Below are positions 1,358 to 38,833 of a stretch of 39,543 nt of DNA, piece after piece. The translations under genes were made by a program, and so were the position numbers. The stretch is from a virus, in the IMG/VR virus record IMGVR_UViG_3300021389_000057, positions 1 to 39,543 of that record; one strand, 5' to 3'. Each line of letters begins with the position of its first letter. The first letter of the stretch is position 1. The notes under the pieces were generated by a model that had not been told where the DNA came from, ran no database searches, and saw nothing but the letters and a program-made list of their open reading frames with translations.

Positions 1358-2011
1358 TTATAGCTCCAGCCTTGGTTCGCTACGATAACTATCGCGTTTC
1401 AGTCTACCCTCACCTAAAATCATAAGTCGCTTTAACGCTTCTTGGTACTTTTCTTCATACTGAGCAAGCAAATCAGCATCACCCTTCATGAATATGTAAG
1501 CTTCTACAAGAGACCCGTACAGCAAAGCAACCTCTGCATTATCACCAAGCCAAGATGTTGATGATGTAACTATAGACGGTGGATCGTAATAATAGTGCAA
1601 TTGAACTTCATATGCGGCATCTGGGGTTGGGCCTAATATAAAGTTTCCAGAAGAGTTAGTTGATGTGAAGTCACCATCAAACTCAGCGTAATACTTAGGT
1701 CTGGAATATGCTGTCTTTGATGGATACGCCTCTCTAACAAAATTAACATCTTTGTTGAGAAGGAAGTGATAGTCTCCATCGCCATCTATAACTGCCATAG
1801 AAAAGGGTGCCAAGAAGTCTGATGGCCTAGCTATGAACCTAACCTGCTGGGTCATGTTCGCCGTAACATTCTTGCGGAGTTCAGGAATTAACACAGTTCT
1901 ATGTATTTTTTCTTCTGCCTGACGAACAAACGTAGGGATTTCAGCGACAAAAGTTGTCTCATCATTCTCCGTGTAAGCCTGTATAGCTGCTGTTAATTCT
2001 GAATAGTTCAT
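1358..2011 (-). CDS. Head-to-tail adaptor protein (tail tubular / connector type)
   Basis: 217 residues. The start MNYSELTAAIQAYTENDETT, an FVRQAEEKIHR helix near residue 30, the LLNKDVNFVREAYP segment and a PKYYAEF motif match, from memory, the adaptor proteins that bridge portal and tail in short-tailed marine phages (functional equivalent of T7 gp11 or the P22 connector proteins). The C-terminal third is helical. A perfect copy of the dispersed palindrome (2005-2018) covers the start codon, and a one-mismatch copy (1594-1607) lies inside the gene; bound protein at 2005 could affect transcription entering this gene. A second adaptor-like protein is encoded at 3733-4413. Confidence 0.75.
   Translation of the reverse strand: MNYSELTAAIQAYTENDETTFVAEIPTFVRQAEEKIHRTVLIPELRKNVTANMTQQVRFIARPSDFLAPFSMAVIDGDGDYHFLLNKDVNFVREAYPSKTAYSRPKYYAEFDGDFTSTNSSGNFILGPTPDAAYEVQLHYYYDPPSIVTSSTSWLGDNAEVALLYGSLVEAYIFMKGDADLLAQYEEKYQEALKRLMILGEGRLKRDSYRSEPRLEL
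1594..1607. repeat. Dispersed palindrome, one mismatch
   Basis: AGTGC-AATT-GAACT inside the adaptor gene, 411 bp from the perfect copy at 2005; T to G variant in the left half. Confidence 0.55.
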
Positions 2012-2023: not shown

Positions 2024-2413
2024 TTAGGATATTCTAAACCTGCCACCTTGAGTGGCAGCACCCATGCCACGGCACACCTTGCCACCACCAGCCTTCTTTA
2101 CCACTTTTTTAGCTGCTCTACCTGCTGCTGCCGCTACGCCCGGTAATGCTGGTTGCACCATTGCTGCTGCAATATTTCTTAACCCATCCCCAGTCTTCTT
2201 AGCCCTATCCTTGCCCCCTCTTTTGGGTTTGGGTTTATCTTTCTTAGGATTTTCCCCAGCGTCAATAGAAGCGTTTATCTCCGATTTGGTCATACCAGCC
2301 AGAAGCTCTTCCGTTTTAATGTCGCCTTCGCGGCGTCTTTCCATAGCATCGGGGCGTTTAGGTGGACGCTTTGATCCCGGTTGGGCTGGTTTAGCTTTAG
2401 GTTTCGTTGCCAT
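2024..2413 (-). CDS. Small very basic Lys/Pro/Ala-rich virion-type protein
   Basis: 129 residues from the ATG at 2411-2413. The frame is open further upstream, but this ATG has AGAGGA eight bases before it, inside the end of the previous gene. Residues 1-45 are rich in Lys, Pro and Arg; a short acidic helix (TEELLAGMTKSEI) follows; then another Lys/Gly block, an Ala-rich stretch (about residues 80-105) and a C-terminal GMGAATQGGRFRIS. No enzyme motif. It is one of five small, strongly basic proteins encoded between 2024 and 5271, which suggests binding to packaged DNA or to the capsid interior. Function not established. Confidence 0.6.
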   Translation of the reverse strand: MATKPKAKPAQPGSKRPPKRPDAMERRREGDIKTEELLAGMTKSEINASIDAGENPKKDKPKPKRGGKDRAKKTGDGLRNIAAAMVQPALPGVAAAAGRAAKKVVKKAGGGKVCRGMGAATQGGRFRIS

Positions 2414-2417
2414 ATCT

Positions 2418-3092
2418 TTAATCCTCTTGGTACAGGTTATCGAATATTTTGTTGACATCCATAGTATAGTCTAAATCGGATTTTGAATAGTGTATATGTT
2501 GAGATGGCTTGAAGTCTGGGGCACCAGTACCAGTCTCAAACCACGCAGGATGAGTAACCCTTACACGATTGTTAGGCAGTGCCACCACATTACCAGTCCA
2601 TTCCCCAGCGTCTAAAAGCTGCATAACATGGCTTTGCTTATGTTGCGCTGGGTCATCCGCTATCTCACCTTCCGAATAATCAACGGTGAACATATACTTT
2701 GCAGGATACATATTCCCATCTATCTTTGCCAACCAAGGACATGGTGTTGCCCTGTCCAAGACGTACACAGCATGGTTGTAGGACGAACAGTCCCAAGGCT
2801 GGGCATCATGCACAGCCATAGCAGAAGGCCACTCATTGAGCGGCTCATCGGCTACAAGAGCGGTTATAGGCATTCTCGCCCACATTGCGCCACCATGTAC
2901 ATTCTCATCTCCTTCTTCATCCGCTTCGCATCCCGTAAAGATAACTTGAAAGCTCAAGCATCTATTTGGCATTGTCGTTACCGCTATTGCCATCGCGTGT
3001 AAGAACTCGCCGTGGTATTGTTCATGGTTGTGAGTATACTCACGGCGAACCCAGCACTTGAAGTGCGGTATGTTACTTTGCAAATAAGCCAA
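2418..3092 (-). CDS. Conserved hypothetical protein, 224 aa
   Basis: 224 residues, beginning MAYLQSNIPHFKCWVRREYT. Rich in His, Trp, Cys and aromatic residues, unlike its neighbours. It has no signal peptide, no membrane segment and no catalytic motif I recognise. I recall near-identical N-termini in uncultured marine phages, always in the structural region, without assigned function. Its stop codon carries the ribosome-binding site of the next gene (2024-2413). It could be a virion protein or a non-structural assembly factor. Its globular composition argues against a fibre role. Confidence 0.55.
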   Translation of the reverse strand: MAYLQSNIPHFKCWVRREYTHNHEQYHGEFLHAMAIAVTTMPNRCLSFQVIFTGCEADEEGDENVHGGAMWARMPITALVADEPLNEWPSAMAVHDAQPWDCSSYNHAVYVLDRATPCPWLAKIDGNMYPAKYMFTVDYSEGEIADDPAQHKQSHVMQLLDAGEWTGNVVALPNNRVRVTHPAWFETGTGAPDFKPSQHIHYSKSDLDYTMDVNKIFDNLYQED

Positions 3093-6403: not shown

Positions 6404-6438
6404 AAAAAAAATAAAGGGGCAACTTTCGCCGCCCCTTT
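6404..6438 (-). terminator. Intrinsic terminator after the capsid gene
   Basis: On the minus strand an 8-bp perfect stem (AAAGGGGC paired with GCCCCTTT, 10-base loop) is followed by a run of eight T. It lies 25 bases after the capsid stop codon, just beyond a perfect copy of the dispersed palindrome (6448-6461). It probably sets a high transcript level for capsid relative to downstream genes. Confidence 0.9.
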
Positions 6439-6447
6439 ACCAATAAA

Positions 6448-6461
6448 AGTTCTATTGAACT
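6448..6461. repeat. Dispersed 14-bp palindrome, perfect copy
   Basis: AGTTC-TATT-GAACT, between the capsid stop codon and its terminator hairpin. Confidence 0.85.
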
Positions 6462-6462: not shown

Positions 6463-7368
6463 TTATGCTCCGCGAGAACCGTAGATTCCCAATGGATCTG
6501 ATACACCAAAGCTGTAACGCTCACGCGCTTTGTAGCGCACGTTACCAGTGTCAAAATCACCATCCATGCCTGTTTGCATAGCGGTACGGACAAAATGCTT
6601 CATGCCGTTAGGCACATCAGTTGTGATGAAGAAGGCATCATTGTCTGTAAGATAGTGATTCACCGCATAACCCTCTGGGATAGACCCGTTTGAATTAAGT
6701 GCGTTGATATCATTATCTGCTGTACCAACACGCAGAGTTGTTTCCAACAAGCGAGTTGCAACAAACATTAACGCTGGTGGAATGATTAGCTTACGAGGGC
6801 GAGCAGCAATCAATAAACCACGTTCATCAGTGAACGCAGCAATATCAATAACAGCTTGCTCAAGTGAAGTTTCATTCAAGTCAGCGTCAGTTGCAGGGCG
6901 GTTAGCATTAGTAGTGCCCTCAACGGTTGGGTGCGCTGTGCTAAACAAAGTAACGCCATCACCTGAGTTAAAGGTGGTGAAGCCTGTGTTCAGCAAAGAA
7001 GCAGCCTTTGTTTGCTTTGTGTATGCCATACCGCGAGCAAGAGCTTTGGTATAACGAGCAGAAAGCGAATCATACAGATTGTCTTCCATAGCCTCTTCTG
7101 TAATAGAAAAGCCCATTGCGACTGTCTCATGATTATAACGCGCAGTGAATGATTCCTGTGCGTTGTCATAAGAAATTGAAGCACCTTCTGCTTTCACAGG
7201 AGCGGCTCCAAAACCTGATAATTTAACTTCCTCTTCAAAGCTACGCTCTGAAGTTTCAGTTTCATAGATCTCAGCATGTTCGTCTTCGTACTTGCCGTAC
7301 TCCAAACCAAACAATGCATTCAGACCCGGTAATAGCTCTTTAAGGAGCTGGGCGCGTGAAATAGCCAT
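6463..7368 (-). CDS. Major capsid protein
   Basis: 301 residues. It starts MAISRAQLLKELLPGLNALF and has an FEEEVKLSGFGAAP segment (residues about 43-56). A helical region with amphipathic ITEEAMEDNLYDSLSARYTK follows, then AASLLNTGF and LFSTAHPTVEG near the centre, and ARPRKLIIPPALMFVATRLL. This matches phage major head subunits of the HK97-fold/gpT-like type as I remember them. Position supports it: scaffold and co-chaperonin upstream, strong terminator directly downstream. Length is normal for the family. I cannot see a propeptide cleavage site. Confidence 0.85.
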   Translation of the reverse strand: MAISRAQLLKELLPGLNALFGLEYGKYEDEHAEIYETETSERSFEEEVKLSGFGAAPVKAEGASISYDNAQESFTARYNHETVAMGFSITEEAMEDNLYDSLSARYTKALARGMAYTKQTKAASLLNTGFTTFNSGDGVTLFSTAHPTVEGTTNANRPATDADLNETSLEQAVIDIAAFTDERGLLIAARPRKLIIPPALMFVATRLLETTLRVGTADNDINALNSNGSIPEGYAVNHYLTDNDAFFITTDVPNGMKHFVRTAMQTGMDGDFDTGNVRYKARERYSFGVSDPLGIYGSRGA

Positions 7369-9885: not shown

Positions 9886-9899
9886 AGTTCAATTGAACT
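9886..9899. repeat. Dispersed 14-bp palindrome, perfect copy
   Basis: AGTTC-AATT-GAACT (fully symmetric), just after the stop codon of the 62-aa gene and about 75 bp upstream of the co-chaperonin start. Confidence 0.85.
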
Positions 9900-13584: not shown

Positions 13585-13839
13585 ATGACTGATGGGTTAA
13601 GCGGCATAGGCAACGCACCGTTTAATGTAGGGTCTGATATCCATCAACAAACTCAAAGCCGTGAACGAATAGAAGCTCACCTAAAAGAACAGATGGTTGA
13701 GAAGGAACACAGGGCAAATCACAGTCACCTAGAGGCGTTAGCAAAGCAAAGGTTTGACTTGGGAGAAGCTTATGATCGCTTTGGTCGCAAGACTAACGCA
13801 GATCGACCCCAAGGAACTAAGATAAACATAGAAGTTTAG
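13585..13839 (+). CDS. Small hydrophilic protein, 84 aa
   Basis: 84 residues, hydrophilic. QQTQSRERIEAHLKEQMVEK leads into a His-rich helix HRANHSHLEALAKQRFDLGE, and the C-terminus ends QGTKINIEV. It begins directly after the stop of the membrane-anchored gene, so it is translationally coupled. It ends at the dispersed palindrome (13838-13851), which separates it from the convergent terL gene. No family recognised; a peripheral partner of the preceding membrane protein is possible. Confidence 0.5.
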   Translation: MTDGLSGIGNAPFNVGSDIHQQTQSRERIEAHLKEQMVEKEHRANHSHLEALAKQRFDLGEAYDRFGRKTNADRPQGTKINIEV

Positions 13840-13851
13840 TTCAATAGAACT
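13838..13851. repeat. Dispersed 14-bp palindrome, perfect copy
   Basis: AGTTC-AATA-GAACT fills the whole gap between the convergent 84-aa gene and terL. The plus-strand stop codon TAG (13837-13839) shares two bases with it. There is no GC-rich terminator here, so this site is the only visible boundary element. Confidence 0.85.
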
Positions 13852-15716: not shown

Positions 15717-15730
15717 AGTTCGATAGCACT
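15717..15730. repeat. Dispersed palindrome, one mismatch
   Basis: AGTTC-GATA-GCACT, seven bases after the terS stop codon. The single change (A to C in the right half) is the same as at 16433. Confidence 0.65.
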
Positions 15731-16432: not shown

Positions 16433-16446
16433 AGTTCTATTGCACT
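16433..16446. repeat. Dispersed palindrome, one mismatch
   Basis: AGTTC-TATT-GCACT in the terS/early-operon divergent gap, followed four bases later by TATATC, a weak -10-like hexamer for the plus strand. It is the copy best placed to act as a promoter operator. Confidence 0.65.
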
Positions 16447-17626: not shown

Positions 17627-18292
17627 ATGGCAAAATCAACATTTCAAATCCAAGACGCAACCGTGAACCTGATCGGCAAAGCGGAGCAACAGATCGGTTC
17701 TCTGAAGGCCGATAACAAGGCAAACAACGAGGTTGCCAACGGTCACAAGATCGGGGCCTATTGCGAGCTTATCGCTGCGCTTGCCCCTGTCAAGTTGGTC
17801 AAGGGCAACCTGCCCCGCGCTGCGTCCAAACAAGTGCGGGAAGCCCTCGCTGTTGCTGGTCTGAAAGAGGCCACCATCAAGCGTTACATGGAGAACTCAG
17901 TTGGTGCGATACGGCACTTTGAGATCGGCGGCATGGCTAACGCCACTGCCACCATGGTTGGTGAGTTCTTTGAGACCCACAATATCGACAGCGAGAACAA
18001 GCTGGCGAAGCTGGTCAAAGGTGAGGGCGGCAAGTCCAAAGCCCAGCGGCTGGCTGAGCAGGTTGTCGGCAAGTGGTCCACAAAGAAGGATGACAAGGGC
18101 AACGCGGTTCAGGGTGACGTGTTCAAGGATGGCCTTGATGATGCTGAGCTTGAGCAGTTCGAGGATATCATGCGAGAGCTTTTGGCTGCGCGTACTGCCT
18201 ACCGTAATGCTGAGGCAGCGAAAGCTGCTGAGGCTGCTGCGTCTGAAGAAAATAAGGATGTCAATGATGTCATTGCACAGTTCGCCGCCTAA
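17627..18292 (+). CDS. Hypothetical alanine/lysine-rich early protein, 221 aa
   Basis: 221 residues, mostly helical. A central basic segment with NLPRAASKQVREALAVAGLK and EATIKRYMENS (about residues 62-90) could be a DNA-binding helix pair. After an acidic region (DDAELEQFEDIMRELLAART) the C-terminus is Ala-rich (AEAAKAAEAAASEEN). SD GAAGGA precedes the ATG. G+C is clearly higher here than in later genes (34 of 60 bases in 17821-17880). Family not recognised; a DNA-binding or host-takeover protein is possible. Its end overlaps a 48-aa ORF in another frame. Confidence 0.6.
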   Translation: MAKSTFQIQDATVNLIGKAEQQIGSLKADNKANNEVANGHKIGAYCELIAALAPVKLVKGNLPRAASKQVREALAVAGLKEATIKRYMENSVGAIRHFEIGGMANATATMVGEFFETHNIDSENKLAKLVKGEGGKSKAQRLAEQVVGKWSTKKDDKGNAVQGDVFKDGLDDAELEQFEDIMRELLAARTAYRNAEAAKAAEAAASEENKDVNDVIAQFAA

Positions 18293-18404
18293 AGGTGCGG
18301 CTGAGGACGATGCTGAGGTAAGCCGCATACTTTCAGATGAGAGTGTGCGGCCTATGTCTGATCGTCTCAAGGCTTTAGTTGAAAAGCTAAAGAAGTTCGA
18401 TTGA
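18258..18404 (+). CDS. Small overlapping protein, 48 aa
   Basis: 48 residues with ATG at 18258 (in-frame alternatives 18264 and 18267), overlapping the last 35 bases of the 221-aa gene in another frame. Sequence after the overlap: DDAEVSRILSDESVRPMSDR, then LKALVEKLKKFD, a charged amphipathic helix that looks coding. The upstream AAGAAAATAAGG provides only a weak ribosome-binding site, consistent with translational coupling. Its stop codon lies inside the dispersed palindrome at 18394. Below usual gene-caller length limits. Confidence 0.5.
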   Translation: MSMMSLHSSPPKGAAEDDAEVSRILSDESVRPMSDRLKALVEKLKKFD

Positions 18405-18407
18405 ACT
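18394..18407. repeat. Dispersed 14-bp palindrome, perfect copy
   Basis: AGTTC-GATT-GAACT; contains the stop codon TGA of the 48-aa ORF and is followed by a hairpin at 18412-18435. Confidence 0.85.
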
Positions 18408-20759: not shown

Positions 20760-20773
20760 AGTTCAATAGAACT
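20760..20773. repeat. Dispersed 14-bp palindrome, perfect copy
   Basis: AGTTC-AATA-GAACT directly after the MoxR stop codon, flanked by A and T runs that extend the symmetry. Confidence 0.85.
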
Positions 20774-22409: not shown

Positions 22410-22845
22410 ACTTTGCTTGGCACTGGCAGTGTACCATGAGGCCAGAGGCGAACCACTGATAGGGCAGAAGGCTGTTGCTGAGGTGGTGATGAACCGTGTT
22501 GCATCAGATAGGTTCCCAGACACGATATGCGGGGTTGTGATGCAGCCTAAACAGTTTTCGTTTGTCAGCCCTAATGGATGGGCTGGCATACCCACAGACC
22601 CAGACGTGTGGGCTGATGCTGTGAACATATCGCAAGATGCGATAGGCAATCATCTTGATGGTCAATCATATTTTGCCAACAAGGGAATGCTGTATTATCA
22701 TTCTACTGAGGTCAGCTTAGTGTGGACTAAAAGTTTATTTGAACTTTTTACCTTGGGGAACCACACATTTTACTCTGACCCTCTGACAAAAACCAACAAG
22801 CCAAGGGAGAGACCTGTTGGAGATACAATTAGAGAGGATGATTGA
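22399..22845 (+). CDS. Endolysin: SleB/CwlJ-type cell wall hydrolase
   Basis: 148 residues. LALAVYHEARGEPLIGQKAV, then AEVVMNRVASDRFPDTICGV, is the start of the Hydrolase_2 (SleB/CwlJ) lytic transglycosylase-like family, with Glu14 in YHEARGE as the expected catalytic acid. QFSFV and later YYHSTEVSLVW and HTFY complete the fold. These domains cut peptidoglycan and serve as endolysins in many alphaproteobacterial phages. No signal peptide is seen, so a holin would be needed. It is encoded in the early operon, unusual for a lysis gene. A one-mismatch palindrome copy (22732-22745) lies inside. Confidence 0.75.
   Translation: MIAELCLALAVYHEARGEPLIGQKAVAEVVMNRVASDRFPDTICGVVMQPKQFSFVSPNGWAGIPTDPDVWADAVNISQDAIGNHLDGQSYFANKGMLYYHSTEVSLVWTKSLFELFTLGNHTFYSDPLTKTNKPRERPVGDTIREDD
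22732..22745. repeat. Dispersed palindrome, one mismatch
   Basis: AGTTT-ATTT-GAACT inside the endolysin gene. Confidence 0.5.
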
Positions 22846-23315: not shown

Positions 23316-23316
23316 A

Positions 23317-23330
23317 AGTTCAAATGAACT
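23317..23330. repeat. Dispersed 14-bp palindrome, perfect copy
   Basis: AGTTC-AAAT-GAACT, two bases after the stop codon of the 65-aa gene; a weak GGCG/CGCC hairpin (23351-23365) follows. Confidence 0.85.
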
Positions 23331-27310: not shown

Positions 27311-28219
27311 ATGAAAATAACAAATAATTACGGGCTTCCTGACCCGTTCATGAACTTTGTCAGGAACGATAAGTACACAAGAGGCAAGGCTGATATCAGT
27401 GTGACTACGCTGATCGACAGTCCTCGCATCAGGTTACTTGTTGATGATCACAAGGATAAACTGGAGTCAGATCTTGTTGATATGATCTGGCCTATCTTTG
27501 GAACGGCAGTGCATTCTGTTTTAGAAAGTTCAATAGAACAAAAAAATACCATAGTGGAAGAGCGTCTATACGCATCCTGTAATGACTGGACTTTATCAGG
27601 TGCGCTTGATCATCAAGAGATCCTTGAGGATGGACGCATTAGGGTAACTGATTACAAGGTTACATCCGTCTGGTCTGTAATCCATGGTAAAAAAGAATGG
27701 GAGTATCAACAGAATTGCTACGCTTGGTTACTCAGGCAGAATGGCAAGGACGTTGAGAGCATTAGGATCTGTGCAATCTTGAGGGATTGGCAGAAGCGCA
27801 AGGCTGCAACAGATGGTGACTATCCTAGCGCACCTGTTGTCATCATTGATCTTCCATTGTGGACGCGGGATGAGTGTCAGAAATATGTAGAGGAAAGAAT
27901 GTCTCTGCATCAAGAAGCGCAAATCAATTATGATATCCATGATGAACTGCCCCTGTGTTCAGAAGCAGAGAAGTGGGAGCGCCCAACAACCTACGCTGTA
28001 ATGGCGAAGGGTAAGAAGAGAGCCATCAGGGTTTTGGATACTCAGTTTGAGGCTGATGCCTACCTTGAAGGATTTAAATCAACCAGTGCGTTGAACCCAA
28101 AAGATTTAACCATCGAAACCAGAAAGGGTGAGAAGGTTAGGTGTAGTGGCTACTGTTCAGTGTCACATTTATGCGATCAGTATTTGAAGGAGAGTGAGGA
28201 AAATGACTACAGCAATTAA
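27311..28219 (+). CDS. RecB/Cas4-like PD-(D/E)XK exonuclease
   Basis: 302 residues. Nuclease core: His68 in GTAVHSV, Asp100 in GALDHQE, Asp114-x-Lys116 in VTDYKV and a QxxxY box (Gln133-Tyr137), as in RecB/Cas4-type nucleases. Four Cys (216, 278, 282, 288; the last three in RCSGYCSVSHLCD) could hold an iron-sulphur cluster as in Cas4 and AddB, though the first Cys is later than usual. Probably the 5'-3' exonuclease that feeds ssDNA to the annealing protein three genes later. A one-mismatch palindrome (27527-27540) lies in the coding sequence. GGAG upstream of the ATG. Confidence 0.75.
   Translation: MKITNNYGLPDPFMNFVRNDKYTRGKADISVTTLIDSPRIRLLVDDHKDKLESDLVDMIWPIFGTAVHSVLESSIEQKNTIVEERLYASCNDWTLSGALDHQEILEDGRIRVTDYKVTSVWSVIHGKKEWEYQQNCYAWLLRQNGKDVESIRICAILRDWQKRKAATDGDYPSAPVVIIDLPLWTRDECQKYVEERMSLHQEAQINYDIHDELPLCSEAEKWERPTTYAVMAKGKKRAIRVLDTQFEADAYLEGFKSTSALNPKDLTIETRKGEKVRCSGYCSVSHLCDQYLKESEENDYSN
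27527..27540. repeat. Dispersed palindrome, one mismatch
   Basis: AGTTC-AATA-GAACA in the nuclease gene; only the outermost base differs. Confidence 0.6.
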
Positions 28220-28576: not shown

Positions 28577-29320
28577 ATGGCTAAGAAAACTGTATGGGAA
28601 ACACTCAGAAGTATTGATGTATCTGAGTATACCAAAAAGAAAAACGGCATGACCTATCTATCATGGGCACATGCTTGGGGTGCATTAAAAGATGTATATC
28701 CAGATGCCACGTTTGAAAAGCATGTAGAGGAAGGCAACATTCCTTACATGATTGACGTTCATGGGTTTGCTTATGTGCGTGTTACTGTAACTGCCAGTGG
28801 CGAAAGTGCTACTGAACTTTTCCCTGTGCTGGATTACAAGAACTCGCCAATTAAAAACCCTAATGCTTTTCAGATCAACACGGCCCATCAACGTGCTATG
28901 ACGAAGGCCATGGGTTATCTGGGTTTAGGTCATTACATCTATGCGGGTGAAGACTTGCCGCCAGATGATGGGGTAGAGCCACAGAAACCAGCCGCTGCGG
29001 TTAAAGTTGATCGTGAATTTCAAGAGATTAATGCAAAGAAGCCAAAGGCTAAACCCGCTTCACCACCGCCCTCAGCAACTGAGACGTCATCGGGTGACGT
29101 GAAGAAGAATGCGTCTGAGGAAAACTGGGATACCACCAAAGCCTTAATATCTGAAGTGGTTAAAGCTTCATCTGATATACAGTGGCTGAATGGTGTGTAT
29201 CGAAAGAACCTTGGTCCGATCAATCAACTCAAGGACAATAGTCCAAAGTTGTATGAAGAGTTAATGAATGACTTTTCAAAACGTAAATCTGAACTCAATT
29301 CAAAAGGAGATCAATCATGA
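28577..29320 (+). CDS. Sak3-like single-strand annealing protein (DUF1071 type)
   Basis: 247 residues. TVWETLRSIDVSEYTKKKNG, then MTYLSWAHAWGALKDVYPDA, is the characteristic opening of DUF1071/Sak3-type annealing proteins (Rad52-like superfamily). VRVTVTASG and INTAHQRAMTKAMGYLGLGH complete the core by about residue 120. The C-terminal half is Lys/Ala/Pro-rich linker plus a final helix. It anneals single strands produced by the nuclease encoded upstream. Starts two bases after the regulator stop. A one-mismatch palindrome (28805-28818) lies in it. Confidence 0.75.
   Translation: MAKKTVWETLRSIDVSEYTKKKNGMTYLSWAHAWGALKDVYPDATFEKHVEEGNIPYMIDVHGFAYVRVTVTASGESATELFPVLDYKNSPIKNPNAFQINTAHQRAMTKAMGYLGLGHYIYAGEDLPPDDGVEPQKPAAAVKVDREFQEINAKKPKAKPASPPPSATETSSGDVKKNASEENWDTTKALISEVVKASSDIQWLNGVYRKNLGPINQLKDNSPKLYEELMNDFSKRKSELNSKGDQS
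28805..28818. repeat. Dispersed palindrome, one mismatch
   Basis: AGTGC-TACT-GAACT in the annealing-protein gene; carries the recurrent T to G variant of the left half. Confidence 0.45.
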
Positions 29321-29619
29321 GTCAGTATCCACCACGCGGAGCGTTGTTCCAAAATCAAAATAAGCAGAAGGAAACTCAACCAGATTACACTGGTAACCTT
29401 GAGATACCTAACGATGTCGCTCAGGATATCATTGCCCAAATCAATGAGGGAATAGAGTCTCCAAAGATTGACCTAGCTGGCTGGAAGAAGGTCGGCAAAA
29501 GTGGTCTGGCTTTTGTATCTTTACGTGGGAACTTAGATCGTAACCGCAGGGATGGTGCTTCATCTTTCCAAGCTCCAGCCCCAAGCAGTAATGTTTCTAA
29601 TGATGAGATACCGTTCTAG
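29317..29619 (+). CDS. Small protein with SSB-like C-terminal tip
   Basis: 100 residues starting MSQYPPRGALFQNQNKQKET, with TGNLEIPNDVAQDIIAQINE and a basic strand segment KIDLAGWKKVGKSGLAFVSL. The tail is disordered and ends NDEIPF, close to the DDDIPF tip by which bacterial SSB recruits partner proteins. From memory, short proteins with this N-terminus accompany phage recombination genes. A role as an ssDNA-associated or partner-recruiting factor is an inference. It overlaps the annealing-protein stop by four bases (ATGA), with AAAGGAG upstream. Confidence 0.6.
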   Translation: MSQYPPRGALFQNQNKQKETQPDYTGNLEIPNDVAQDIIAQINEGIESPKIDLAGWKKVGKSGLAFVSLRGNLDRNRRDGASSFQAPAPSSNVSNDEIPF

Positions 29620-29623
29620 TGCC

Positions 29624-29836
29624 ATGGTCAGGAATAACTTTCTCAAAAACTTTAAGGTCGGTGAAGATCTTTTAGATGCTCATGAGGCGGCAGCGCTTCT
29701 GTCAATTCATGTAAAGACTTTCTACAAATGGACCAAGGAACGTAAGGACTTTCCAATGGCCATTGAGTTTAGTCCACGCATGAAGAGATGGAAGAAGTCT
29801 GATATTACAGCTTGGGTTGAAAGCTTGGGCGTATGA
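29624..29836 (+). CDS. AlpA/excisionase-like helix-turn-helix protein, 70 aa
   Basis: 70 residues with the ATG at 29624; ATG 29603 is an alternative in the same frame and neither has a strong ribosome-binding site. LLDAHEAAALLSIHVKTFYK, WTKERKDFPMAIEF, RWKKSDITAWVESLG: the MerR/excisionase-like HTH_17 pattern of AlpA-type regulators. These bind DNA as small activators or recombination directionality factors; no integrase is present here, so a transcription role is more likely. Overlaps the next gene by four bases. Confidence 0.65.
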   Translation: MVRNNFLKNFKVGEDLLDAHEAAALLSIHVKTFYKWTKERKDFPMAIEFSPRMKRWKKSDITAWVESLGV

Positions 29837-30279: not shown

Positions 30280-30293
30280 AGTTCTATTGAACT
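30280..30293. repeat. Dispersed 14-bp palindrome, perfect copy
   Basis: AGTTC-TATT-GAACT between the 144-aa gene and the terminator hairpin, in the convergent gap with the giant gene. Confidence 0.85.
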
Positions 30294-30296: not shown

Positions 30297-30330
30297 ACAG
30301 TCGCGCTAACCGGGTTGGCGCGACTGTTTT
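30297..30330 (+). terminator. Intrinsic terminator of the recombination operon
   Basis: Perfect 10-bp stem ACAGTCGCGC/GCGCGACTGT with an 11-base loop, then TTTTATT on the plus strand. Read from the minus strand the stem is followed by AAAAG, so it stops plus-strand transcription only. Confidence 0.85.
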
Positions 30331-30346
30331 ATTGTATGCTTGAACT

Positions 30347-33300
30347 TTATATTCCCTGAGCAATCATTATGCCCTGACGGGTTATTATCTTTCTTTGCTC
30401 GACAAGTTGCTTGACGATGCGATCCTTCTCATCTTGCGGCAAACGTGAATCATTCACTGCCGTAATCTGCTGAGAGATCTTCCGTCTTGCTGATTCAATC
30501 TTCTTGATTTGCGGAGCAATCCTAAGCTCTGCCTCAAACCTAGACACGGCACTGTTGATGCGGTCCACGTCACCACGCTGAGCGGCCTTCTTGTACTCAG
30601 CCGTTGCCCTGTTCACCTGATCACGGACCTCAATGTATTGAGACACGTCATCCCTGCTGGACACGCTTCGTAAAACTCTACGCATGAACGGGATCTCAGT
30701 GGCAATATCCTCTGCGGATTCTGCGGCAGCTATTCTTGCTGGTGCTTCAGCGGTACGTTGCACAAACCTACCAGCGCCGCCCGTAATATAATCAAACCAG
30801 AACTCCAAAGAGTTTGGTGACCAATCAATCCACCCACTCAGTGTCTCAGTCCCACCCGTCAACTCATTAAGAGCCTGTGTTATGCCAACTGCTGTCGGAG
30901 AAGTGTTGTTCCAGTACAAGCTGCTTTGTGATGCCACCTGATTTGGGAATGCCTTCTTAACAATATCTCTGCCAGAGAAGTCTGTGTTGGTTCCGTACAG
31001 TGAGATGAAGGGATCAAACACAGTGGGTGCTGCGAAGTTCAAGAAGCTTTCAGTACCACCTAGCGGGTTGAATATCTCAAGGGTTGTGCGCCCAATAGAT
31101 GCTCCAATCTCTGATGGATCTGATCTGCCCTGAGCCATCTTGGCAAAGTTGCGCCCGACATTGTGGAATGCGTTCATGCCGTATGGCATTGGTATGGAAA
31201 CATACCCACGTCCAAAAGGATCCATCACATCTGGCAACATGAATACCATGTTGTGTTCCAGAATATAGTCTGGGATCTTGTCGTACTGCTTTACTCCATC
31301 CTCATCCTCATCTGACATCATTGAGTTAATTATGTCTTGCGTAAAGCCAACAGCTATAACGCCACCCATGATATTGCGAACCTTCTTGGAGCGAGCCAAT
31401 GATCTCAACAGGAAGAAGCTGCCCTGCAAGGACGCATTGTAGAATAGGTACAGTGAGTTCAAGAATGCCTTGTTGTCACCACCCTTGCCAAAGTCTACGG
31501 TCACACTCCTTGCGGCCTGTGCTGCTCTCTCCTTGGACACGCCACGCTTAACCAGAGCGTCATAGGTGCTAACACGAATGGCGTTTTCAACCACAAGGTT
31601 TGAATTATCCATGAACTCTAAGAGCTTCTTACCTTTGGCCTTCATCAGCCCAAGCTTACCGCTTGCATCAGAGATGTCTGACAGTGTGGATTGAAGATCA
31701 GATATCTGATCTTGTAGTGTGGTCATTGGGTTGGCAGCACTTGCACCGCCGTATGATCTGAACTCTTTGTATATCTTTGCCCACTCAGAAGAATCATCTT
31801 TGTTTAAGATGGATCTCTTTAGGCCTTTTGCTGCCTTCAAAACATTTCTAATCGTGTCTTTTCTCAGGCCATCCATTTCAAACTCACTGACCTGTATGCC
31901 AGCGGCTTGAACGTCACGAATGAAGTTGGAGATAAAGAACTCTGGGTTCCAAGATGTGTTAATGTTTGACAGGTATCTGTTTACCTTAGCCAAACCTCTG
32001 GTGATTGTGGCAGCGTTGCCAGCATCCCAAATGTTTTCCCCGTTGAACGCACCCGCCAAGTTGTTGTCATAGAACTGAAGGACTTTCTCTTCTCCGTTCT
32101 CTTTTACAATGGCGATTGATGGGTCATCACGATAGGTTCTCGTCGGCTTGATAACAACCGCACCGTTCTGCATTACGCGGGCTGATGGTGGTTGATCTAG
32201 GATCTCAGCATATCCAGACATGCCTTGAGGGTTTGATCTAACTAGATCAAGCATAGACTTACCAACCTTGTTGCGCTCGCCACGAACAATAGAGTTTGTA
32301 TTTTGCAGGATGGTGCTTGCCAAAATATCTCTGCCGTATGACCTACGACCTAAAGCCCTTTGATCTTCTCTGCCCATAGCTCCATATCTGGATGGCTTGC
32401 CGCTGCCGTAGATTCCCTCTTGGTCAACTTCAAAGTGACCCTTGAGTGGAACATAGAAATCAAAGTTGCTGTCTTCCATGTCGCCTATCTTCATGTCGCT
32501 TGACTGTAGACCAGCCGCAACACGAACAGCGTTGGTATCATCCACGATAGAGCGAACAGCATCCTCAGCCTGACGCAAAGCTATTTTGTTTTGCGGGTCA
32601 AGGCTATCAAACCAGTTGAGTATTGCATCAGCCTCTGCATCAGTCATACCTGAGCCAGCATCATTGGTGGGGTCCACCGTTCTGATGTACGCGTTTCTCT
32701 CCTTGGCATGTTTTGCATAGAGATAAGTATCTACGGCGGATAAAGCTTTTGACTTTGTTCCCTCAAACGTGAACTCAGCAAGGCCTTTACCACCACCAGA
32801 GTTGGCATTTGATAGTGCCTTTAGCTGATCAACCTGCTGCTCTGTGATGTTCATGTTTTTGACAGCATCAGTGGCAGCTTTATAAATTGTTTCCTTGCGC
32901 TCAGTAATCTTACTGCCAGCAATACCTTCGCTCAGTTGCTGCTTCAGATATGGGTCCATGCTATCAGCGATCTTATACTGAGGATTTATCTCCTTCAGTT
33001 CTTTGATCATTCTGCCAACAGGAATAAAGCTGTCCTGTGTTTTCTGAATAAATAAATCTGCTCTCTTCTGTGCCTTTGTCTTGTCGGTGAAGGGCACCAA
33101 GCGCAGAGCTTTGCCAAGCCAGTCAGCGATATCAGTGTAGCGTGTTACACGATCCGCTTGCATCGCGTCTAGACCTGTGCCGCTTACAGTGTTCAATGCG
33201 CTCAGTTTGATCTGGCTGTTGCGGATCTTTTTGCGATCCTTCTTATCCATGACTGGGAAGAATGTCTTGACGTAGTACGGACCGTTGCCGCTGTTACGCT

Positions 33301-36300
33301 TGCCACGCTCAAGGACAAGGCGCAGGGGTGGGCTTTTAGCCATGCGGTTATCGAACCACTCCAAAACCAAGTTGCCTCCTGACGGGTACGCTACAACGCT
33401 GTCACCGTCCTGATAGCCTTGGCTCTTCCATCTGTGCAGTGTGTCGTAGATGGCTTTCTCTACTCGCTTGTACCCTGAGTTCTCTACAAGCTCCTTGTCG
33501 TGCAGTCTTTGCTGTATGTGATAGAGACCACCGCCGTTATCAAACTGGTCATTGCTTCCCTCAGTAAGAAGGACGGGGATAACCTCACCATCAGTTTCCT
33601 GTATGCCGCCATATATAATGTCAGTCAGAGTGCCAGTTCGTTTGACTGGAGTTCTGATTGCTTTGTATGGATCAATAGGTATTTGAGAAAGCTTCTGTGG
33701 TGGAAGTTCATTTGAACTTTCTACACCTTCCATCGTTGACAGATCTACGTCTGCCTCTGTGATGAATGGCGCTGCCTCTAGTGCTAGTTCTCTAGGGGCG
33801 AAGAAGTCTCCCTCTGCAATCGTTGGCTTAACTGCATCAACGCTTCCGCTAACCGATCCATCTCCTTCTCGTTGAGCGATGATACCAGCGAGTCTTCCTC
33901 GCTCTGTTGCGGGGAGTGAATTTTTGATTTTGTCATCGCCTATACCTTTGTTTTTCAGGATGTTCAGGGCACCGTCAGCATAATCGTTGTCATCGCCACG
34001 GCCTTTACGGACACCACCAGCTTCAAACAAACGCTTCTCAGCATACCACATAAGGGCTTGGAAATCAGCATTAGTTATATCAACGCCAGCCTCATCCTTG
34101 AGGATCTGTCTTGCACGATTAGCAACCTCACGCATTGCGGTCCTGTCCTGTGCGTTGCGAGGATCCTCTTGTAGAGTTGGGATTAGCTTCTTCTGATATG
34201 TTTCAGTGGCTCTCAGGAAGGCTGTCTTTGACGGACGTGATGCAGCCGCAAGAGACTTAACGGTTGCAGCGTCTCGACCAACAGGGGTTTTGCTTTTGTT
34301 TAGACTGAACTCATACTGACCAGATGTAAGTAAGTCTTCAACGGTATCCTTATATGCCTTCGTGTAATGATCTCTATTCCAGATCTTACCAATCTCAGGG
34401 GCAATCAGAGGTATGTCTGTCTTGTCCATTGTGGATATGTTAAGTTTTCTTTGTGCTTCAAAGAGAATATTTCTATCCATGTCTGTCAGTGGTTGATCTG
34501 CCTCAGTAATAAAGTTCCAAACAGTATCAAGGTTCTGCTCTACCAGCTCGTCTGCATATTTTACTGTAGGGTTACCAGTGATGCGGTTAGCAAAGCGCAT
34601 CCACCATCTATCCATAGTTAGAGGATCGTAGTTGCCTCTAAGGTTTTGATAGAAACCGTTGCCAATCTTTGGACCCAGTATGTAGGCCACAGATACCATT
34701 GTGTTAGCTTCTTCAGCGCCACTAGCTTGGAACTCTTTGGGCAAGTCCTTAACCCTATCGACCCCAAGAACATCAACCATTGTTTTGTTGAGATCTTTCT
34801 TTGGCATCTGCATGGTTAGCAAAGCCTCAATCTCATTTGATGACATACCTTTGCGGCTCAGTGTGTTCCAAAACTCAAAGGCAGATAGCATAGATCCACC
34901 TTGAGCGCCTGATCCCTTGACTGGGAAGGTGCCACTATCACTAGCCTTCCAAGCATCATACTGCTCAGATGCGAACCTGTAGTTGTCTATAACTGACAAA
35001 CCATTTGATGTGATGGCAGTGGCAAAGTCAAAGGCATGTTCTGCTGCTGGGTCATACTCAGAGTTTGGAGAACCGTCAGGCCTCTCCGGTGAGACCTCTG
35101 GATACACAGGGAACAACACACGCTTAGCCAGCTTGAGTGTAGAGTCATACCAACCAAGGGCATCACTGCCAGAGATCAATGCTGCCTCAGCTTCAGCCGC
35201 CATGATCCTTGCTGCGTCTTGCTTGTCACGCTCTGAATTTATTATGTCCAAAGGAGCTACGTTACGCAGGCCAAGAAGTTTCTCAGCAAAGCTAACTAAT
35301 GTCTCTGAGCCTTCTTTCTTTTTAAATTGAGGCTGCCCCGTTTTTGGATTAAGGTAATCAAGTATACTTGCATCACGTTGGGCTGGCGTCAGTGGAACTC
35401 TTGATGTCTTAATTCCAGAAGCAGCCCTATCTATATCTCCAAAGGCTGATTCTACCTGATCTGTTAGTCTTGTTCTTGCAGTATCTGATTGACCATTGAT
35501 TTCATTATCGGACTCAACTCGCGTAGTTCCTCGTTTGAAAGGATCGAATCTAGATCCAACAAGGGGGTTGTTTCCTGAGACTTTTGTAACTGACTTGGGT
35601 TCATTGACCCCGCCATTGTTGTCGATTTGCGCGTAGCCATCTGCAATTCCATCTTGTTTTAATTTTTCAAAGACTTTTGTAGGATTGTCTCTGATAGAAT
35701 CAAAGTAACCTATCGGAATGATTCTGCCAGTGTTTACAAACCTGCCAATCATTCTGGAATATGCTTCTTCTGGAGCAACATCCATGTTGACTAGATTTAC
35801 CTTATATCCTTTTTCCTTTAATTTGTCAATTAACTGGACAATACTTTTTGACTTGTCGCCCACCTTTGGGATCATGATGTTAGTGCCGCGAGACATCATT
35901 AACTCATATAGGCCAGAAACAAGATCAGAACTTTCCTCATGTACAGCCGCAGCGCCTATGCCACCTTCATACTCAGGAAGTGATTTCTTGATCTCATCAG
36001 AATCCGCAATGGCAAATCCTTTTGATGTTGCCAGTTCATTAGCTATCGTGGACTTTCCTGATGCTGGTGGGCCAACAAGAATTATTGCTTCTCTATTTTT
36101 AGGAATGGGCTTGGGTTGCAGACCCATCTCCACAAATCCTAGTTGCTCTGCCTGTCTTTCAAATGCTCGTAAAGCATTGGGGGTTCCCATAACCCTTTCA
36201 CCGTTTACTAGATATGTCCTAGTGTTATGCCAGTTTTCGCTATTATAATCGGGGCGAAGATTTGTTTGTTCTCTTTGATTCATTTGGCTTACGACAGAAG

Positions 36301-38833
36301 ATATAGACGGGTGCATGTCTATTTGCTGTCGTGGTGGATTGGTTTGAAACAGAGAGCTTAGGTCATTTATGGAATCTCTTATCTCCTTTGGGAGACTTGC
36401 GGGTATTCTTGACTGCCTTGCAGTGGTTACTTCTGTGCGTGATGTCGGGGTCTGTGTGACTGTGGTTACAGGAGCGCGATCAGCAACACTGCCAGCACCA
36501 ATGCCACCGAATATAGCACCAACATTATTAAAGCCATTGTCAACATGTGCCCCTACGATTGACCTAAAGAAGTCACCTATCCGCTTTAACAAAGGTCTAG
36601 ATGTTCCAACATTCTTCAATCTGCCAGCAGTGAAGTCACGATACATCTCTGCAATCGCTTCCTCTTCAACAGCAGACATCCTACCTTTGTCTCCCTTCTG
36701 ACCGACAAGCTCACCGTTAAGCCTACCAGCGCGGTCTAAGTAGGAGTAAGATCTCTTCTTGCCCTCTGGATTTACAAACTTTGTCTTCTTGGCAGCTTTC
36801 TTTAGGAGATTTATTTCTTTAGGTGTGAAGACATTCATGTCCACAATCGCGTGTACTGCTTCGTGATTCATTACTTCAGCAACGCTATTGGTGTAGTCAG
36901 CGTCAGATAGTGAAGGATCGTATACACCAAGAGCCAAGGTGATTGCTTTCTCTTCGCTCATTGGATCGAACTGACCCTCTACCAGACTATCTTGACTGCC
37001 AATAACCTTCTGACCCTTGAGGCCAACACGCTTGAGACCCATCTTGTCCAGACGTTCTCTCAAGTTATTCATCACAGCCTCTTCACGCTGTGTGTACTCA
37101 GGCTTCTTTTCAACTTGCTCTTTGCTAAGGCCATCGAAGATGGTTCTGGTTTCACCCCTCTTCTCAGCCGCCTGAAGTTGTGGTCCTATCTCTGCCTTCA
37201 GTTGCTCAGGGGTAACTTTACCGGGTATTGATTCGATTTTCTCAGAAGCTTGAACTTTATAGTCATCTGGCAAAGTAACTAACTTCTGTTGGTTCGATTC
37301 GAGCCTTGCGTTTAATTTGTTCAATTGAACTTTTTTATTATCAAGAGCAGCCTGAACTTCTTCAGCCTTTACTGCATTACCCCGCGTGTCTTTACCTGTC
37401 TGGGTTGCATACCTTAAATCCAATTCAAGTTGTGGTATATCCTTGGCAATTTTGTTTGCCTTAACCACAACATTTGCGCTGTCACGTCTGACGTTGTCCA
37501 GCGCATTCTCTGCCATCTTCGTGGGTGGTGTGACAGTATATCTGTCAGTCTTTGCACGTTGGCTTTTGGATATCACACCCTGTGTAGTAAGTGAGTCTCT
37601 GGCTTGCTTGATCAGACTATCTGTCTGCTTCTGAGTTTCCCCTGAGAGACCAGATTTTTGCAGAGCAATCCTAGCCTTTGGAAACTTTAGCTCACCCTCA
37701 ACACGCATAGATGAAAGCACGACATCAGCCGCACGATTAACCAACTGATCTTCTGGGGTGGCTGTCGGTGCGGGTAATGCTAACTGAACCTGTGGCTCAG
37801 GTGCTGACAGTATTTCATCAACCTCTTTAACCTCTTGCTCTGTTTGTTCCAATCCATATGCAAGCCTTGTTCTTGCCACCTCTCCCAGTTTGGTGAGGTC
37901 TTCATCCAGTTCCTTGGATACTTTATCGGTATCAACGGTGGGAGATACCAAGCCAGCAGCAGAACCTATTGTTCCACCGACTACCGCTCCAGAAGCAAAT
38001 GCTTCTTCGTATTCCTTTAAGGCATCTTCATCAAACAAATCTTGTCCAGCTTGCGCCCTGTTTACCATGCTTTGAGAAACTTCTTGAAGACCCTCAAGTC
38101 CACCAGCTTGCCCGCCTTCCATCAAAACTTTTCTGGCACGGCCCGCATCAACTGGCTTGATAAACTTACCAATGACAAAGTAATCAATTAAGAACTCAGA
38201 AGCTGCATTAATGGCAGTTGCTCCACCCGCTCTTAGAATGCTGGTATCCATACCAGCTTCCTCTTGTTTATTGATTGCTTCAGCAAACATCTGAGGTAGA
38301 GCCTTGACCGTTGTGTATCCAACACCCGCAGCCCTAGTAATACCTGCTCCGACTGGGCCAAATGGGAGGCCAGCTAACGTGGCTCCAGCTTGTATAGCTG
38401 TATCTTTAGCCTCACTGCCCAACGCCTCACCAGCGAAGCTTGCTGCTGATGATAGATCATTTACATCATCGTACCTTACAGATGGATCTTCAGCCTCAAG
38501 TCTTTGTAATTCTGCCAGTGCATTTTTTTGTTGCTCTTGTGCTGCCTCAGCGTCCAAGCCAAACATTTTGCCAACAAATGTATCTGCAAGAACCTCTTTT
38601 GTTTTGCCTTGAGCAAGTTGATTTTCATAGGGTTCTCTTTCAAGACCCCGCATGAAGGCAGTTTTGTCTTCCTCTTCTGGCTCAGGTGGTTGAACTGCAA
38701 CAGGTGCTTGATCACGCTTCGATACAAGGAAGTCGTTTATCTGTTGCTGTTCATTCTCAGTGGGTTCTGTTCCAGAGATGTTTACTGAGTAGTCAATTCC
38801 TGTCTGAGGATCTTTGACAAATATTACAGACAT
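30347..38833 (-). CDS. Giant polyvalent virion protein: HExxH, Zeta-type kinase, RNase-like and LPD38 domains
   Basis: 2,828 residues, about 21% of the window. GAGGA precedes the ATG. In order: acidic N-terminus; Gly/Ala-rich hydrophobic segments (about 140-300) that could enter membranes; coiled coil (about 440-560); HEAVH (657-661) with a downstream acidic helix EEEAIAEMYRDF, a zincin-like peptidase; Zeta-toxin/UDP-GlcNAc kinase-like domain with GPPASGKST (921-929) and DSDEIKK; a conserved polyvalent-protein segment around 1400 (NYDPLTMDRWWM); an RNase-like region (about 1750-1860, LYHIQQRLHDKELV); LPD38-like C-terminal region (about 2100-2480, TVDFGKGGDNKAFLNSLYLF). Polyvalent proteins of this type are thought to be injected with phage DNA to counter host functions. 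Confidence 0.8.
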   Translation of the reverse strand: MSVIFVKDPQTGIDYSVNISGTEPTENEQQQINDFLVSKRDQAPVAVQPPEPEEEDKTAFMRGLEREPYENQLAQGKTKEVLADTFVGKMFGLDAEAAQEQQKNALAELQRLEAEDPSVRYDDVNDLSSAASFAGEALGSEAKDTAIQAGATLAGLPFGPVGAGITRAAGVGYTTVKALPQMFAEAINKQEEAGMDTSILRAGGATAINAASEFLIDYFVIGKFIKPVDAGRARKVLMEGGQAGGLEGLQEVSQSMVNRAQAGQDLFDEDALKEYEEAFASGAVVGGTIGSAAGLVSPTVDTDKVSKELDEDLTKLGEVARTRLAYGLEQTEQEVKEVDEILSAPEPQVQLALPAPTATPEDQLVNRAADVVLSSMRVEGELKFPKARIALQKSGLSGETQKQTDSLIKQARDSLTTQGVISKSQRAKTDRYTVTPPTKMAENALDNVRRDSANVVVKANKIAKDIPQLELDLRYATQTGKDTRGNAVKAEEVQAALDNKKVQLNKLNARLESNQQKLVTLPDDYKVQASEKIESIPGKVTPEQLKAEIGPQLQAAEKRGETRTIFDGLSKEQVEKKPEYTQREEAVMNNLRERLDKMGLKRVGLKGQKVIGSQDSLVEGQFDPMSEEKAITLALGVYDPSLSDADYTNSVAEVMNHEAVHAIVDMNVFTPKEINLLKKAAKKTKFVNPEGKKRSYSYLDRAGRLNGELVGQKGDKGRMSAVEEEAIAEMYRDFTAGRLKNVGTSRPLLKRIGDFFRSIVGAHVDNGFNNVGAIFGGIGAGSVADRAPVTTVTQTPTSRTEVTTARQSRIPASLPKEIRDSINDLSSLFQTNPPRQQIDMHPSISSVVSQMNQREQTNLRPDYNSENWHNTRTYLVNGERVMGTPNALRAFERQAEQLGFVEMGLQPKPIPKNREAIILVGPPASGKSTIANELATSKGFAIADSDEIKKSLPEYEGGIGAAAVHEESSDLVSGLYELMMSRGTNIMIPKVGDKSKSIVQLIDKLKEKGYKVNLVNMDVAPEEAYSRMIGRFVNTGRIIPIGYFDSIRDNPTKVFEKLKQDGIADGYAQIDNNGGVNEPKSVTKVSGNNPLVGSRFDPFKRGTTRVESDNEINGQSDTARTRLTDQVESAFGDIDRAASGIKTSRVPLTPAQRDASILDYLNPKTGQPQFKKKEGSETLVSFAEKLLGLRNVAPLDIINSERDKQDAARIMAAEAEAALISGSDALGWYDSTLKLAKRVLFPVYPEVSPERPDGSPNSEYDPAAEHAFDFATAITSNGLSVIDNYRFASEQYDAWKASDSGTFPVKGSGAQGGSMLSAFEFWNTLSRKGMSSNEIEALLTMQMPKKDLNKTMVDVLGVDRVKDLPKEFQASGAEEANTMVSVAYILGPKIGNGFYQNLRGNYDPLTMDRWWMRFANRITGNPTVKYADELVEQNLDTVWNFITEADQPLTDMDRNILFEAQRKLNISTMDKTDIPLIAPEIGKIWNRDHYTKAYKDTVEDLLTSGQYEFSLNKSKTPVGRDAATVKSLAAASRPSKTAFLRATETYQKKLIPTLQEDPRNAQDRTAMREVANRARQILKDEAGVDITNADFQALMWYAEKRLFEAGGVRKGRGDDNDYADGALNILKNKGIGDDKIKNSLPATERGRLAGIIAQREGDGSVSGSVDAVKPTIAEGDFFAPRELALEAAPFITEADVDLSTMEGVESSNELPPQKLSQIPIDPYKAIRTPVKRTGTLTDIIYGGIQETDGEVIPVLLTEGSNDQFDNGGGLYHIQQRLHDKELVENSGYKRVEKAIYDTLHRWKSQGYQDGDSVVAYPSGGNLVLEWFDNRMAKSPPLRLVLERGKRNSGNGPYYVKTFFPVMDKKDRKKIRNSQIKLSALNTVSGTGLDAMQADRVTRYTDIADWLGKALRLVPFTDKTKAQKRADLFIQKTQDSFIPVGRMIKELKEINPQYKIADSMDPYLKQQLSEGIAGSKITERKETIYKAATDAVKNMNITEQQVDQLKALSNANSGGGKGLAEFTFEGTKSKALSAVDTYLYAKHAKERNAYIRTVDPTNDAGSGMTDAEADAILNWFDSLDPQNKIALRQAEDAVRSIVDDTNAVRVAAGLQSSDMKIGDMEDSNFDFYVPLKGHFEVDQEGIYGSGKPSRYGAMGREDQRALGRRSYGRDILASTILQNTNSIVRGERNKVGKSMLDLVRSNPQGMSGYAEILDQPPSARVMQNGAVVIKPTRTYRDDPSIAIVKENGEEKVLQFYDNNLAGAFNGENIWDAGNAATITRGLAKVNRYLSNINTSWNPEFFISNFIRDVQAAGIQVSEFEMDGLRKDTIRNVLKAAKGLKRSILNKDDSSEWAKIYKEFRSYGGASAANPMTTLQDQISDLQSTLSDISDASGKLGLMKAKGKKLLEFMDNSNLVVENAIRVSTYDALVKRGVSKERAAQAARSVTVDFGKGGDNKAFLNSLYLFYNASLQGSFFLLRSLARSKKVRNIMGGVIAVGFTQDIINSMMSDEDEDGVKQYDKIPDYILEHNMVFMLPDVMDPFGRGYVSIPMPYGMNAFHNVGRNFAKMAQGRSDPSEIGASIGRTTLEIFNPLGGTESFLNFAAPTVFDPFISLYGTNTDFSGRDIVKKAFPNQVASQSSLYWNNTSPTAVGITQALNELTGGTETLSGWIDWSPNSLEFWFDYITGGAGRFVQRTAEAPARIAAAESAEDIATEIPFMRRVLRSVSSRDDVSQYIEVRDQVNRATAEYKKAAQRGDVDRINSAVSRFEAELRIAPQIKKIESARRKISQQITAVNDSRLPQDEKDRIVKQLVEQRKIITRQGIMIAQGI
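33705..33718. repeat. Dispersed 14-bp palindrome, perfect copy
   Basis: AGTTC-ATTT-GAACT inside the giant gene; one of two perfect copies overlapping coding sequence (the other covers the adaptor start codon at 2005). Confidence 0.8.
37319..37332. repeat. Dispersed palindrome, one mismatch
   Basis: TGTTC-AATT-GAACT inside the giant gene; only the outermost base differs. Confidence 0.6.

Follow-up and report, generated by a model that had tools for sequence, protein, structure and literature searches.

The nearest described case that we found for the repeat reported here is the 17-bp dyad TGTTCGG-N3-CCGAACA of the Cluster O mycobacteriophages (Corndog and its relatives), which has 34 copies in Corndog (PMC4351075). 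The extracts of that paper describe a genome-wide repeat, denser towards one genome end in Corndog, with many copies intergenic and about a third in genes. A dimeric binder was predicted by its authors and no protein was assigned to the repeat; the phages are not obviously temperate, and no stop-codon bias is mentioned in these extracts.

Four further systems are described in extracts of the literature. In Cluster A mycobacteriophages (L5, TipsytheTRex), the stoperators are sites for the phage repressor, which binds as a monomer; each is an asymmetric 13-mer, and its orientation follows transcription (PMC9283540). SPBRE of Bacillus phage SP-beta is a 15-bp element at prophage promoters, bound by a single phage master regulator, MrpR (PMC10516654). 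T1-like phages (Stevie, T1, TLS) carry 22-bp repeats that were likened to stoperators and whose role was called obscure, and the Stevie repeat is asymmetric and oriented with transcription (PMC4319613, PMC11447400). The Nostoc cyanophages A-1 and N-1 contain 43 and 21 copies of asymmetric motifs, typically between genes, which were suggested to be promoters or stoperators (PMC4916379).

The window, meaning the whole stretch of DNA analyzed here, is a virus record of 39,543 bases, with matches to known phage families for its head, portal, and terminase genes. It carries the dispersed palindrome AGTTC-N4-GAACT, for which no published description was found in the full-text literature, judged at overview level. 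Like the Cluster O repeat, it is symmetric and dispersed over structural and early genes, and it differs from that repeat in sequence and spacing. Its sites are many, dispersed, and often in short intergenic gaps (9 of 16 noncoding), as Cluster A stoperators are. However, each is a 14-bp dyad when perfect instead of an asymmetric 13-mer, and a symmetric site has no orientation that could follow transcription. Membership in the Cluster A stoperators therefore fails on symmetry. An earlier note on this DNA had proposed a family of sequence-specific DNA-binding sites like stoperators or partition/anchoring sites; a family resembling stoperators in distribution is well supported, and the symmetry departs from the Cluster A model. 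Like SPBRE, the palindrome is a phage element repeated in several intergenic gaps, and its binder may also be a phage protein, probably dimeric; unlike SPBRE, most of its sites are away from starts. Dispersal and a mostly intergenic location are shared with the T1-like repeats, and repetition with the Nostoc motifs, which have another sequence.

Counts, spacing, and placement of the palindrome

A direct scan of the window identified nine perfect and seven one-mismatch copies of AGTTC-N4-GAACT. All nine perfect copies named in the earlier note were recovered at their positions. The seven one-mismatch copies also exist, the last of them starting at 37318 and not at 37319, and the change T4>G or its mirror was confirmed in four of the seven. 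When four genomes were counted, one-mismatch changes fell mainly at half-site positions 1 and 4. The count was not reproduced after shuffling with the same dinucleotide content, so the motif was not refuted: the window holds 16 copies with at most one mismatch, compared with a mean of 1.29 and a maximum of 5 in 100 dinucleotide-preserving shuffles. Among the 5-base inverted repeats of the window with gaps of 0-9, AGTTC-N4-GAACT ranked first with a score of 32.3, whereas the best score of any such repeat across 60 shuffled windows was 11.6.

The one-mismatch site 1594..1607 (AGTGC-AATT-GAACT) was located within gene 1358-2011. The perfect site 2005..2018 overlapped the start codon of that gene (minus strand), and its centre lay 12.5 bp past the stop of 2024-2458 (minus). 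The perfect site 6448..6461 was just past the stop of the major head protein gene 6463-7368 (minus), and a strong intrinsic terminator-like hairpin at 6410..6441 (minus; 14 pairs, a T run, -21.5 kcal/mol) adjoined it directly downstream. Perfect sites were also present at the stop of gene 9899-10087 (minus; site 9886..9899) and at the convergent ends of 13585-13839 (plus) and the TerL gene 13852-15360 (minus; site 13838..13851). Two one-mismatch sites followed, one past the stop of the terminase small subunit gene 15737-16267 (minus; site 15717..15730) and one in the divergent gap between TerS (minus) and the early genes (plus; site 16433..16446).

Further to the right, three perfect sites lay among plus-strand genes: 18394..18407 between 17627-18292 and 18461-18976 (both plus), 20760..20773 just past the stop of the AAA ATPase gene 19721-20758 (plus), and 23317..23330 just past the stop of gene 23115-23315 (plus). 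One-mismatch sites lay within 22399-22845 (plus, endolysin-like by PHROGs; site 22732..22745), within the exonuclease gene 27311-28219 (plus; site 27527..27540), and within the Sak-like annealase gene 28577-29320 (plus; site 28805..28818). The perfect site 30280..30293 separated the convergent genes 29833-30267 (plus) and 30347-38833 (minus), and a second strong terminator-like hairpin adjoined it directly downstream at 30297..30327 (plus; 14 pairs, 8 of them G-C, -23.4 kcal/mol). The perfect site 33705..33718 and the one-mismatch site 37318..37331 were within the gene of the 2828-aa polyvalent protein (30347-38833, minus). In this protein, Pfam detected a zeta-toxin-like kinase domain at 912-1075 and LPD38 at 2516-2716.

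The placement statistics rest on a gene list picked from the window ORFs, by which 7.9% of the window is noncoding. Nine of the 16 site centres were noncoding (binomial 8.2e-7). Eight of the 16 sites were no more than 25 bp downstream of a stop codon, and none of 20,000 random placements had as many. Among the noncoding sites, seven of nine were that close to a stop, compared with 16% of noncoding positions (binomial 7.2e-5). Six sites were in genes, two were between convergent genes (13838, 30280), and one overlapped a start codon (2005). Four of the six in-gene sites spell Ser-x-x-Glu codons, so protein constraint may account for part of their conservation.

The window sites were more evenly spaced than random placement. 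For the perfect copies the coefficient of variation of the spacing was 0.34, and only 0.28% of 5000 random sets were as even; for all 16 sites it was 0.56, with 1.3% of random sets as even. The widest gap between perfect copies was not unusual (9.5% of random sets), and neighbouring sites were never more than about 4.4 kb apart. Such evenness would suit anchoring, partition, or genome-organizing sites for a nucleoid-like or segregation protein that has no direct effect on transcription. The symmetric sites at the convergent junctions 13838 and 30280, which need no promoter, point the same way, as do the sites associated with the giant gene: in the window and in contig G018 they are inside it, and in G024 they fall between its matches. 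Nevertheless, the strong bias towards gaps and gene 3' ends suggests a link with expression, and no ParA or ParB name appeared among the matches of the 20 window proteins searched in PHROGs and the 10 in Pfam, a subset of what the genome encodes. We consider the anchoring explanation unlikely.

A different proposal is that each site serves the start of a single transcription unit, as an operator or activator site in a classical repressor or activator regulon. The model would be SPBRE, the 15-bp element that MrpR binds at promoters (PMC10516654, extracts). MrpR is a regulator with a tyrosine-recombinase fold. The three plus-strand sites 18394, 20760, and 23317 lie about 60 bp ahead of a start, as this would predict. 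The convergent-end and in-gene sites, however, have no start nearby, and promoter-like sites were fewer than in shuffles in a sigma-70 scan, which covers that promoter type (21 vs a mean of 30.6, and 20 vs 28.2). Start-linked operators thus appear doubtful as a general account.

Our own tentative reading is that AGTTC-N4-GAACT could be the operator of a phage-encoded, probably dimeric DNA-binding protein with stoperator-like functions. The protein would occupy 16 or more places in the genome, mostly short gaps and often gene ends, with further places at intervals inside long genes and two directly before terminator-like hairpins. Once bound, it would hinder read-through from one transcription unit into the next, as a series of roadblocks or insulators. 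In the window, the stretch after the site was among the most stable 4% of the background in 4 of 10 sites tested; in G018 and G024, a comparably strong hairpin followed 1 of 15 sites tested.

Protein sites and RNA hairpins

The core stem of the palindrome contains two G-C pairs and was at -3.0 kcal/mol or weaker in 15 of the 16 sites, with 30280 reaching -3.6. When flanks were included, the sites folded at 0 to -6.8 kcal/mol. None of the 16 has the stable G-C-rich stem plus T run of an intrinsic terminator, and none was in the terminator listing, which requires three G-C pairs and excludes them by that rule. The changes in the window comprised seven one-sided changes, one compensated double change (site 20851), and one uncompensated mirrored double change. 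A stem this weak, together with changes that are mostly one-sided, points to protein-DNA sites more than to RNA hairpins.

We accordingly judge it very improbable that the palindromes work at the RNA level, whether by terminating transcription weakly or as hairpins for 3'-end processing. Several features would agree with such a role: the sites sit after stop codons, A/T flanks are present as in bidirectional terminators, a T run follows some sites, some flanked sites fold to -6.8 kcal/mol, and the double change at 20851 is compensated. Beyond the weak core, however, both recurrent changes (T4>G, A1>T) disrupt pairing, and the first flanking A/T pair is complementary in just four of the nine perfect sites and not in the other five. 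Moreover, separate strong hairpins come after sites 6448 and 30280.

Recurrence and drift in related phages

Related contigs were collected by head protein (the best 80 loci) and VWA protein searches (17 loci). At least one site with no more than one mismatch was present in 19 of the 25 contigs from these matches that were examined whole. The gene-by-gene comparison covered 12 contigs, which were chosen because they bear sites, and in these the sites recurred at equivalent places, against the second refutation that the earlier note had named. The shared places extended to clades with 62-63% or 50-51% identity to the window in the VWA protein. They included the position after the head protein gene, positions at or near the ends of the TerL, TerS, and AAA genes, the position before 23382, the end and the interior of the polyvalent protein gene, and the interior of the Sak gene. 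The junction of site 2005 was also occupied in G013, G014, G018, G021, G023, and G004, and a site followed the major head protein gene in all six compared contigs that hold this gene. Thus, a group of marine bacterial viruses shares the dispersed palindrome at matching genome places.

When IMG/VR was scanned for the extended motif AAAGTTC-N4-GAACTTT without use of homology, at least 120 loci were returned. A window homologue was present in 55 of the 120 loci listed, and two or more window genes in 44 of them. The corresponding values for a scan with the palindrome of the Planktothrix phage Pag-Yong1, which returned at least 120 stretches, were 14 and 2 of 120; that scan is a G-C-richer control and not a neutral one, and 80 of its stretches were listed, with a single place in each. 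Together, the dispersal, the enrichment in gaps, the recurrence in relatives, the fixed half-sites, and the mostly uncompensated changes make a family of DNA-binding sites well supported.

Related lineages bear altered palindromes. Loci L194 and L222 have mostly GTTCAAGTGAAC or GTTCACTTGAAC, and L156 has AGTTCACCTGAACT at two of its three perfect sites; in all three the half-site is constant and the spacer is altered. Pag-Yong1, whose head protein is one of the three closest in the phage collection (74%), contains GGTTCAG-N-CTGAACC 33 times with at most one mismatch, 17 of them perfect. Its sites were noncoding in 19 of 33 cases (binomial 1.6e-12). With a limit of 25 bp, 10 of these noncoding sites were close to a stop and 5 to a start; each class of position makes up 20% of the noncoding DNA. 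The centres of 8 of the 33 sites lay 29-30 bp ahead of a start, which means that closeness to stops is not a universal rule. This repeated distance speaks for start-linked operators, and, by suggesting a link with expression, it also speaks against anchoring.

No perfect AGTTC site was found in G005, G009, G010, G011, HTVC027P, HTVC023P, DSL-LC04, 023Pt, or CRP-901, several of which are partial. These phages have the head module in common, and a direct match to the protein family of window gene 17627-18292 (the 17627 family) is absent from them. With G010 set aside, their top-scoring 5-base inverted repeats had at most 4 copies, compared with 9 in the window. The head protein of G005 is 88% identical to that of the window, yet G005 has no perfect site. 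The mosaic contig G003, whose structural module resembles that of the window and whose TerL is just 46% identical, keeps two perfect AGTTC sites though the 17627 family is absent.

Other repeats were seen in these and further phages. In G003 (loci L104 and L105; contig 19979-32034), 12 GTAGTG-N3-CACTAC palindromes, one of them mismatched, occupy the early region, while the AGTTC sites are in the structural module. G010 (loci L144, L145, and L146), a G+C-rich phage with the common head module, carries GTATGC-N5-GCATAC 21 times with at most two mismatches, 17 of them perfect; the copies span contig positions 1105-43741, nearly all at 30392-43741, and several are followed by purine-rich stretches. 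Both palindromes are mainly in early regions and do not count as evidence for the AGTTC motif. Locus L192:10164-10499, in an otherwise different phage, has eight GTTC-N4-GAAC-like sites in three short runs with 21-bp steps, resembling an iteron or centromere array. In G019, G023, G024, and G025, TATA-rich inverted repeats were among the top-scoring repeats.

Candidate binding proteins and their meaning

The earlier note had put forward three binders. Its XRE protein (28194-28574) and winged-helix protein (22817-23146) now seem unlikely: neither had a tblastn match (E 1e-3) in the six site-keeping contigs G017-G022, and the genes flanking both places were matched in all six. A different XRE-like gene, judged by eye, is present in G018 at 1925-2533. 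The third, the HTH_17/AlpA-like protein (29552..29836, plus), may be retained as a second candidate. It belongs to a family common to the window and Pag-Yong1 (E 1.8e-17) and is conserved, but lineages that share a site differ in its recognition helix. As to whether the phage is temperate, like those with Cluster A stoperators, this protein matches excisionase families, and 20 window proteins gave no integrase match, in a window that falls short of the 58-62 kb of related contigs.

The best candidate, suggested by its co-occurrence with the motif, is the orphan 221-aa protein encoded at 17627..18292 (plus). For the window protein, Pfam at its curated cut-off and PHROGs up to E 1 both gave nothing, and other family members had only weak matches (best PHROGs E 0.0014). 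In a scan with the family alignment, the best 80 of 131 relatives (833 kb) contained 161 perfect and 216 one-mismatch AGTTC sites. A perfect site was present in 70 of these 80 loci and a site with at most one mismatch in 79, whereas 59 permuted half-sites gave a mean of 0.93 perfect copies and a maximum of 11 in the same loci. In 14 control genomes with no direct 17627 match (674 kb, including Pag-Yong1), two perfect sites, both in G003, and 14 one-mismatch sites were found. Since the 80 loci are redundant, they were clustered by protein identity and the longest locus was counted. At 95% identity, 25 of 31 clusters had a perfect site and 30 had at least one site; at 80% identity, the values were 14 and 16 of 16 clusters. 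Contig L358 has the family but lacks even a one-mismatch site. Because the early genes around 17627 travel with it, co-occurrence does not distinguish it from them.

One scan of bacterial genomes gave a sole 17627-family match, on a partly masked 6.7 kb contig that carried no site of at most one mismatch. This contig was binned to an Akkermansiaceae genome, a placement that bears on whether the sites are boxes of a host regulator such as LexA, with the box GTTC-N4-GAAC. The Verrucomicrobia LexA box, located upstream of SOS genes, is TGTTC-N4-GAACA and has the same core. However, a bin assignment for so short a phage contig (6.7 kb) says little about the host, and the 1.9 Mb bin showed no enrichment of GTTC-N4-GAAC (13 vs 40 for the reversed control). 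The motif also drifts by phage lineage and goes with the early module and not with the capsid, as G005 illustrates. That the sites are boxes of a host regulator is therefore quite improbable.

A remote homologue of the 17627 protein is predicted beside the AAA gene of Pag-Yong1, at OL906435 32003-32842, by hhalign (probabilities of 85, E 6e-6, and 75, E 2.4e-5), and we regard this link as moderate. Plain hmmsearch missed this homologue; no relatives turned up when IMG/VR was scanned with the Pag-Yong1 protein or the phage collection was searched with 17627. A G003 protein near its AAA gene had no profile match.

The putative helix at residues 77-97 was among the most conserved segments of the 17627 family (0.83 vs a mean of 0.70, in 37 of 43 aligned proteins), and segments 118-131 and 138-147 were as conserved. 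The helix was altered in the group L194, L222, and L355-L357, which has the spacer AAGT/ACTT, as seen in L194, L222, and L357. It was also altered in the group L352-L354, as seen in L352 and L354, and this group had no perfect and five one-mismatch AGTTC sites. The G023/G024-type and L319-type helices differ, and these lineages keep AGTTC-N4-GAACT. L156 has a strongly different helix, yet three perfect sites, and L187 has the usual helix and one site in 10.3 kb. In L194 and L156 the motif change is in the spacer and not in the half-site. The helix thus tracks the motif imperfectly.

Two structure models of the 17627 protein were mostly helical with a long C-terminal helix (mean pLDDT of 85.4 for one). 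Foldseek against PDB gave nothing at E 0.001, VIA-align gave no Z of 8 or more, and a profile search of PDB sequences gave nothing below E 0.18. One uncharacterized viral protein with 49% identity was matched in BFVD. The missing structure matches prove nothing; with no convincing solved-structure match, DNA binding by this protein rests on association. The 17627-18292 protein is a better, though unproven, candidate binder than the XRE and winged-helix proteins.

The window also encodes, at 19721-22168, an AAA ATPase and DUF2201/VWA pair related to N4-like phage genes; in the phage collection, the AAA ATPase occurs in 758 records and DUF2201/VWA in 703. The MoxR-type ATPase and VWA module was rejected as a sufficient correlate of the palindrome. 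Homologues are carried by CRP-7 (ATPase and VWA), N4 (ATPase), and pVa5 (VWA), and no dispersed palindrome was found in the first 50 kb of any of these three records.

The many environmental relatives, the motif that drifts between lineages, and the co-occurring orphan family open the question of the binder to direct test by binding assays. More speculatively, and with considerable doubt, the 17627 family might be an undescribed class of dimeric DNA-binding proteins that marks gene boundaries genome-wide in marine phages not known to form lysogens, a symmetric counterpart of stoperators outside lysogeny whose specificity diversifies with its sites. If true, this would give phage biology a symmetric regulator that marks boundaries throughout a genome, and it would supply a series of naturally occurring protein-site pairs with which to study specificity.
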